NCBI RefSeq assembly: GCF_006546655.1
Contig: NZ_VIAQ01000015.1
Span: forward strand, 434,001 to 498,000
Length of the DNA: 64,000 bases
Origin: Methanolobus vulcani
Lineage (GTDB): Archaea > Halobacteriota > Methanosarcinia > Methanosarcinales > Methanosarcinaceae
Direction: 5' to 3'
This document shows positions 30,880-34,678 of the stretch, one piece after another. The notes below the pieces were generated by a model. It was not told the DNA's origin. It was given only the letters and a program-made list of their open reading frames with translations, and did not search any database. The stretch's first letter is position 1. Every line of letters begins with the position of its first letter. The position numbers were made by a program, and so were the translations under genes.

Positions 30880-32130
30880 TTATTGTTTCTTCAGGAAAAG
30901 GATCGTGAACAGACCCAATACACATGCGGTAAGCGCAGGTGTGGCTGTTGGTACCGGTTCTGGTTGTTCCAGAGCTCCCCTATCGCTGACCAGATACTCC
31001 CAGTAAGTATTTCCTTCTTCAGTTGTACCATTATAGCTGATGGATGCACCTTCCTGCTGGAAGGACATGAAGTCTACAAAACCACCATTCTCAATAGGAG
31101 TCGTGTAATTGAAAACAGCTACATTATCGGAATTTATGCTAACCTTAAGGTCAGATGTTGATAATGTGGTGCTTAATGGGCGTCTCCTATTGTATTGTTT
31201 TTCACTTATCCAGTCCTTTTCAATAACATCGACCTCATCTCCGAAATACTCTGAGATAACTTTTCCAGTGCATTTTTCCATAAATATCAGGTGTTTGTAT
31301 GAGTATTCATCATATCCGTCACCAACTATGTCCCTTACACCGTAGAAGACCGTCTGATAATTATCCGTGCTCACTTCGGACCAGCTCCAGCCATGCATCT
31401 CCATTGGCCATGTTATCTCTGTGCTTGTCATTGATATCATATGGTCCATGTACCCTTCTCCCTGAGCTACTGTGTATTTCTTACCATCAATGACTATTGA
31501 CCCACTGAGGTTTCCACAGGCATTTTCATATGTAATGAATTTCAGGGGCTCTTCAGCCTAGTCAACAGTTTTGCTGGCGTTTGTCTGAAACAGCAAATTC
31601 ATTTCCACATCTTCATGTGTATAGTTCAATTCATATCCCTGAGATTGTGAGCCATTGTAACTCTTCATTCCATCAGGGAACGTATAGTCCACATAAGGTG
31701 TGTGTATCCCTACATAATTGCTAAGAAGAGCATTTGGAATATAAGTATCAACTTTGTTGAAAAATGATGTATCGTTGTCATAATAGAGGCCATAGAAAGT
31801 AAGCATATAGGAGAGTTGCGTTCCATCTGAAGTTACCATGATGGGCGATTCCTGATGTGCCAGTACGACAAAGAACCCGAAACTTCTTTCTTCTCCGTCA
31901 TCGGCCACAAGTTTTGTATCACCATTCAAATACCACCATTCTGCCATCATATTCGTAGCAAAGTCAGTATCAAGATATCCTCCTTCTGTATAGTCTTTTT
32001 CTATTCCCTGCACTAAGACTGTTTCATCTGATGTGGCCATTGCAGAAGCTGCCACGCTAAGGTGTATAAGTATATAGAGTATCCCTAAAAATATTCCTAA
32101 GCCAATTTTCGTATCCTTTCCTATTCTCAT
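30880..32130 (-). CDS. CrtC/AttH-like secreted lipocalin-type protein with one in-frame UAG (candidate pyrrolysine)
   Basis: One reading frame of 417 codons is interrupted only by TAG at 31558-31560 (codon 191). Before it: a signal/anchor segment and the AttH/CrtC hallmark AEWWYLNGDTK with FGFFVVLAHQ. After it: VAQGEGYMDHMIS, matching the family's G-x-x-W-x-DH motif, HGWSWSEVSTDNYQTVFYGV, and a C-terminal threonine/proline linker with a membrane helix and KKQ. The halves join in frame with no missing segment, so the gene is intact if UAG is read. In Methanosarcinaceae UAG can encode pyrrolysine; a nonsense mutation is the alternative. ATG 32130 follows GGGGG; GTG 32145 is possible. Confidence 0.7.
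31558..31560 (-). other. in-frame UAG codon, possible pyrrolysine
   Basis: The codon lies between TNASKTVD and AEEPLKFITYE. Sequence on both sides keeps family motifs and normal codon use, and no hairpin, ribosome site or plausible restart follows closely; the next in-frame ATG is 36 codons on and beyond the start of the conserved GEGYMDH motif. Confidence 0.5.

Positions 32131-34678
<2,548 letters not shown>

Follow-up and report, generated by a model that had tools for sequence, protein, structure and literature searches.

A private amber codon in the gene for an exported CrtC/AttH-like protein of Methanolobus vulcani, probably rescued in part by pyrrolysyl-tRNA

Does an in-frame UAG in a methanogen that carries the pyl genes reveal a new sort of pyrrolysine (Pyl) protein, or an ordinary gene struck by a nonsense mutation? 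The question is raised by a minus-strand gene of M. vulcani, located in a 64,000-nucleotide stretch of contig NZ_VIAQ01000015.1 (positions 434,001 to 498,000, hereafter the window). Here we examine the gene and its protein, the codon found at the same site in relatives, and the use of UAG in the rest of the genome, before weighing the possible fates of the codon.

A single gene for an exported protein, broken by one TAG

When the TAG is counted as a residue, the window gene forms a single frame of 416 codons, with codon 191 as its sole break and TAA as its terminal codon (Table 1). No frameshift or second stop was found in the 416 codons. In the reading frame, the coding scores reach 40 bits for the first half and 58 bits for the second, the two alternative frames of which score below -160. 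In a translated search, 20 of 112 genomes of the family gave matches (own genome included). Nearly all homologues carry both halves in one protein without a TAG, and the best ones span them uninterrupted, which argues for one gene and not two neighbouring ones. The preliminary description, which had joined two adjacent frames into one gene, is thus borne out by the frame, by the coding scores and by the homologues. Coding frame and homology continue on either side of the UAG, as they do in genes for Pyl proteins. The ATG at the head of the frame appears to be the better start, being preceded about 7 nt upstream by GGGGGA.

Table 1. Features of the interrupted gene, in window coordinates
Feature	Position	Strand	Remarks
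CrtC/AttH-like exported protein gene (putative)	30880..32130	-	416 codons with TAG as a residue; TAA end
In-frame TAG, codon 191	31558..31560	-	CAG (Gln) in 3/3 same-genus orthologues
First half, 190 aa	31561..32130	-	N-terminal hydrophobic signal sequence, AEWWYLNGD motif; product if UAG terminates
Second half, 225 aa	30883..31557	-	GEGYMDH and GWSWSEV motifs, C-terminal tail; open, constrained
C-terminal tail, VPTATP + hydrophobic segment + KKQ	30883..30960	-	Resembles VPXXXP-CTERM signal, below curated cut-off
GGGGGA, probable ribosome-binding site	32138..32143	-	For the start ATG 32128-32130

The predicted protein has a hydrophobic N-terminal stretch and two blocks of conserved motifs, together with a C-terminal tail limited to the genus. 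This tail, in which VPTATP is followed by a hydrophobic segment and a basic end, is kept in the three orthologues of the genus, and a similar one is found on another protein of one of these congeners (G042). It looks like a membrane-anchoring sorting tail, and its score against VPXXXP-CTERM (TIGR04143) is 15.6 bits, below the cut-off of 30. The protein had been called secreted; the term needs refining, as the product is probably anchored in the membrane by its C-terminus. In G042, the terminal codon of the orthologue is itself a TAG (L004 2731-2733), read-through of which would append a few residues beyond the tail.

The assignment to the CrtC/AttH-like (lipocalin-fold) family draws mainly on the predicted fold. 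The window protein gave no match in a Pfam search and no real match in a sequence search of solved structures, and the Pfam CrtC match of one homologue is weak (E=0.016, below cut-off). A fold search was run with a poor, low-confidence model built from a two-sequence alignment (pLDDT 44): its first match was AttH (NE1406, PDB 2ICH; E=6e-7, probability 1.00), and AttH, Phm7 and kievitone hydratase all had E < 2e-6, with TM-scores of 0.3-0.4. Within the limits of such a model, these matches support the family proposed in the preliminary description, which we retain as a putative assignment.

Both halves of the gene are under strong constraint. Compared with the closest orthologue, dN/dS is about 0.09 before the TAG (dN 0.090, dS 0.99) and 0.10 after it (dN 0.059, dS 0.62). 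Nonsynonymous changes are slightly commoner in this lineage than in its sister lineage (23:31 versus 12:24), a difference that is not significant (p=0.51). As both halves are otherwise intact, with dN/dS at about 0.1, the TAG is recent, tolerated, or both.

Codon 191 in the relatives

The three same-genus orthologues, which are 74-84% identical to the window protein, all have CAG (Gln) at the aligned site. In more remote homologues the residue is E, S, K, D, H or Q, encoded by GAG, GAA, AGT, AAA, GAT, CAT, CAA or CAG, and a TAG was absent from every homologue aligned. Conservation of the UAG across relatives is thus rejected, all aligned homologues having sense codons, which is the outcome that had been named beforehand as speaking against a Pyl protein. 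As judged from this alignment, the TAG arose privately by a single C-to-T change, and the residue at this position varies and is mostly polar. The Gln of the congeners is not due to missing machinery, because pylS is present in all 27 genomes of the genus that were searched. Other strains were sought by searching named genomes, and the sole match was a Methanophagales relative.

The genome contains no paralogue, and within the genus the gene is limited to 4 of 27 genomes. In the window it adjoins genes for a monomeric isocitrate dehydrogenase and a TatD-type hydrolase; in three congeners (L003, L004, L005) its neighbours are others. Single copy, patchy distribution and differing neighbourhoods point to an accessory gene, whose loss the cell could afford.

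Pyrrolysine machinery and the use of UAG in the genome

The genome (G000 in our coordinates) encodes PylS (G000:C1:268093, locus L026). Downstream of pylS lie PylB-, PylC- and PylD-like frames, named from gene order and sequence, and a RamA-like frame. A tRNA-Pyl gene with a CTA anticodon, 90% identical to an M. acetivorans-like tRNA-Pyl query, was found at L028 1501-1572 (G000:C1:240463). This pylT lies about 27.5 kb from pylS, whereas in the pylTSBCD cluster of other Methanosarcinales it stands directly upstream. Each of the three mtmB genes contains exactly one in-frame TAG, and a genome scan detected TAG-split methyltransferase genes with split positions fitting MtmB, MtbB and MttB, the last two being named from the Pyl positions of these proteins. 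The host thus possesses pylT, pylS and pylBCD, as expected for a Pyl protein, and the cell is very probably able to decode UAG as pyrrolysine. On this point the preliminary description, which had suspected a pyl-encoding methanogen and proposed to look for the pyl genes, was correct, and the objection that their absence would have raised falls away.

UAG is nevertheless used as a stop, and is a dual-use codon in this genome. It ends 3 of the 44 genes called in the window (the interrupted gene counted) and 6-10% of genes, depending on stringency, in an 872-kb sample (about 30% of the genome, taken as stretches); these stop-usage figures, like the next-stop distances below, come from a home-made gene caller and are approximate. 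The earlier remark that UAG is rare as a stop holds in so far as it is rarer than the other stops, but it is not absent. Genome-wide reassignment would imply a UAG near-absent as a stop and frequent inside ordinary genes, and we observed neither in the 872 kb. A 2025 study reportedly describes archaea whose UAG codons all stand for Pyl; this genome does not resemble them. The share of UAG among stops is 4-5% in Methanosarcina, 1.6% in Ca. Methanomethylophilus alvus and 20-30% in Pyl-decoding bacteria (PMC4153887); the value found here is higher than in the former two and lower than in the bacteria.

Two observations, both weak, fit some read-through of UAG. First, in 872 kb of this genome 26 of 421 confident genes end with TAG, versus 25 of 208 in 500 kb of the congener G058 (6% versus 12%, p=0.02; the counts omit methyltransferases, the omitted numbers being judged from the genome scan). 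Second, in the 872 kb the next stop is closer after genes ending with TAG than after others (median 5 versus 8-9 codons, p=0.003). This second signal, seen in a 30% genome sample, is weak: it shrank with more data, from medians of 3 versus 9 in a smaller first sample, and it is not seen in G058. Taken together, the two observations hint weakly that congeneric species differ in their read-through of UAG.

We also searched the 872 kb for other interrupted genes. A homology approach found one TGA interruption besides the TAG of the window gene; a coding-potential scan returned the same TAG, the methyltransferases and one TGA in a histidine-kinase ATPase domain, the remaining candidates looking like adjacent genes. 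The interrupted ordinary genes of the sample thus comprise one with TAG and two with TGA. No in-frame TAG was found in any ordinary gene other than that of the window, and neither the homology nor the coding-potential scan revealed an enrichment of TAG in ordinary genes. Random nonsense changes would be expected to yield such a proportion, one TAG in three. By Pfam, the genes with TGA encode an EamA transporter (G000:C15:51811, L069), whose in-frame TGA is replaced by Trp in one relative, and a HATPase domain (G000:C15:628232, L086); they are either young pseudogenes or sequence errors, evidence that ordinary nonsense mutations (or such errors) arise at a similar rate without rescue. A second TAG candidate, at C15:617376, was rejected, as it appears to close one gene, with a second gene beginning after it, and not to interrupt a gene: we take the sequence downstream of this TAG, MTIIDAEGLILG, to resemble the start of ribosomal protein L13.

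Probable fate of the UAG at codon 191

The explanation that we favour, with a probability of about 0.6, is an amber mutation in the gene of an exported CrtC/AttH-like protein, probably partly rescued by tRNA-Pyl and neutral or mildly harmful. A private C-to-T change would have turned the Gln codon CAG of this single-copy gene into UAG, and the pyrrolysyl-tRNA made for the methylamine methyltransferases would be available at the new codon. Ribosomes would then either terminate, releasing a 190-residue fragment devoid of second half, tail and anchor, or insert Pyl, giving a full-length protein of 416 residues with Pyl191. As relatives have various polar residues at the site, the Pyl side chain is probably tolerated there, and the mutation would be of neutral or mildly harmful effect, not selected. 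We infer decoding at codon 191, its efficiency and the tolerance of Pyl; partial rescue is suggested by the presence of a Pyl suppressor tRNA in the cell and by the reading of ordinary UAGs in relatives. UAG, still a stop in this genome, may mostly terminate at this codon, and some full-length protein is probably made.

Pyl outside the methylamine methyltransferases is already described. A reporter in M. acetivorans gave an apparent 20-30% of Pyl read-through at its UAG; in the same species, the gene for the tRNA-His guanylyltransferase Thg1 has a private in-frame UAG at which Pyl can be inserted, though the activity does not need it (PMC2933860). Like Thg1, the window gene belongs to a pyl-bearing methanogen and is constrained, and its UAG, missing in relatives, is limited to one species and one step away from a sense codon. 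The two protein families are unrelated, and Pyl was physically observed in Thg1 whereas decoding is inferred here. The Pyl of Thg1, not needed for activity, has been explained by neutral evolution (PMC2933860, PMC3639795), and other genes, too, have been considered as bearing neutral in-frame UAGs (PMC3639795). In Ca. M. alvus, 16 Pyl proteins are predicted, Cas1 and MtxX among them (PMC4153887). There too, in-frame UAGs occur in ordinary genes whose homologues have none, but in 16 genes and with 1.6% of UAG stops, versus one case in 30% of the genome and 6-10% here. MtmB, MtbB and MttB share with the window gene a single in-frame UAG and the pyl machinery in the same genome; however, their UAG lies at a conserved position and their Pyl is catalytic, while the UAG of the window gene is private and its site variable.

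The serious rival is a plain pseudogene, in which translation stops at the UAG, the 190-residue fragment serves no purpose, and any insertion of Pyl is negligible or of no consequence. The preliminary description was right to name nonsense mutation as the competing explanation. The private single-step change, the UAG stops of 6-10% of genes, the dispensability of the gene in most of the genus, and the chance proportion of one TAG to two TGA all agree with it. Against it stand the full pyl system of the cell, the read-through of an ordinary UAG documented in a relative (PMC2933860), and 416 codons without other lesion, both halves being strongly constrained; the pseudogene would have to be very young. 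We regard this outcome as possible, but rather unlikely. A sequencing or assembly error, the true codon being CAG, is a smaller rival and an improbable one. The rest of the gene is intact, and the draft assembly, in 20 contigs, contains two further isolated interruptions; on the other hand, it is rated 99.99% complete, and three isolated interruptions in 872 kb are a rate compatible with real mutations.

Selection for Pyl, such that the function of residue 191 requires it in this species, is very improbable. The 101 nt from the UAG on fold somewhat better than shuffled sequences (z of -2.6 and -1.9 in two runs), but the orthologues do not share this RNA structure, and other parts of the gene give comparable z-scores. 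Moreover, the site accepts Q, E, S, K, D or H, and is Gln in pyl-bearing congeners. Little credence can likewise be given to an efficient insertion of Pyl that is now useful, with anchoring or activity depending on a supply of Pyl linked to methylamines. Complete reassignment of UAG, making codon 191 an ordinary sense codon, would fit the nearer next stop after TAG-ended genes, but is very improbable, as no further in-frame TAG was found in ordinary genes of the 872 kb and UAG stops are far commoner than in Ca. M. alvus, where they make up 1.6% (PMC4153887).

The idea of Pyl as a feature of this protein class, raised in the preliminary description, finds no support: the UAG is private, its site variable, and interrupted ordinary genes are not enriched in TAG. 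A new class of pyrrolysine protein defined by UAG 191 is not supported by these comparisons, and the mutation looks like a tolerated accident, not a new use of pyrrolysine. If decoding is confirmed, the window gene would provide a further natural UAG mutation tolerated thanks to the Pyl suppressor tRNA, and an exported protein whose C-terminal tail arises only on read-through. It would then help to gauge the leakiness of UAG in dual-use genomes, and would warn annotators against labelling such genes as pseudogenes.
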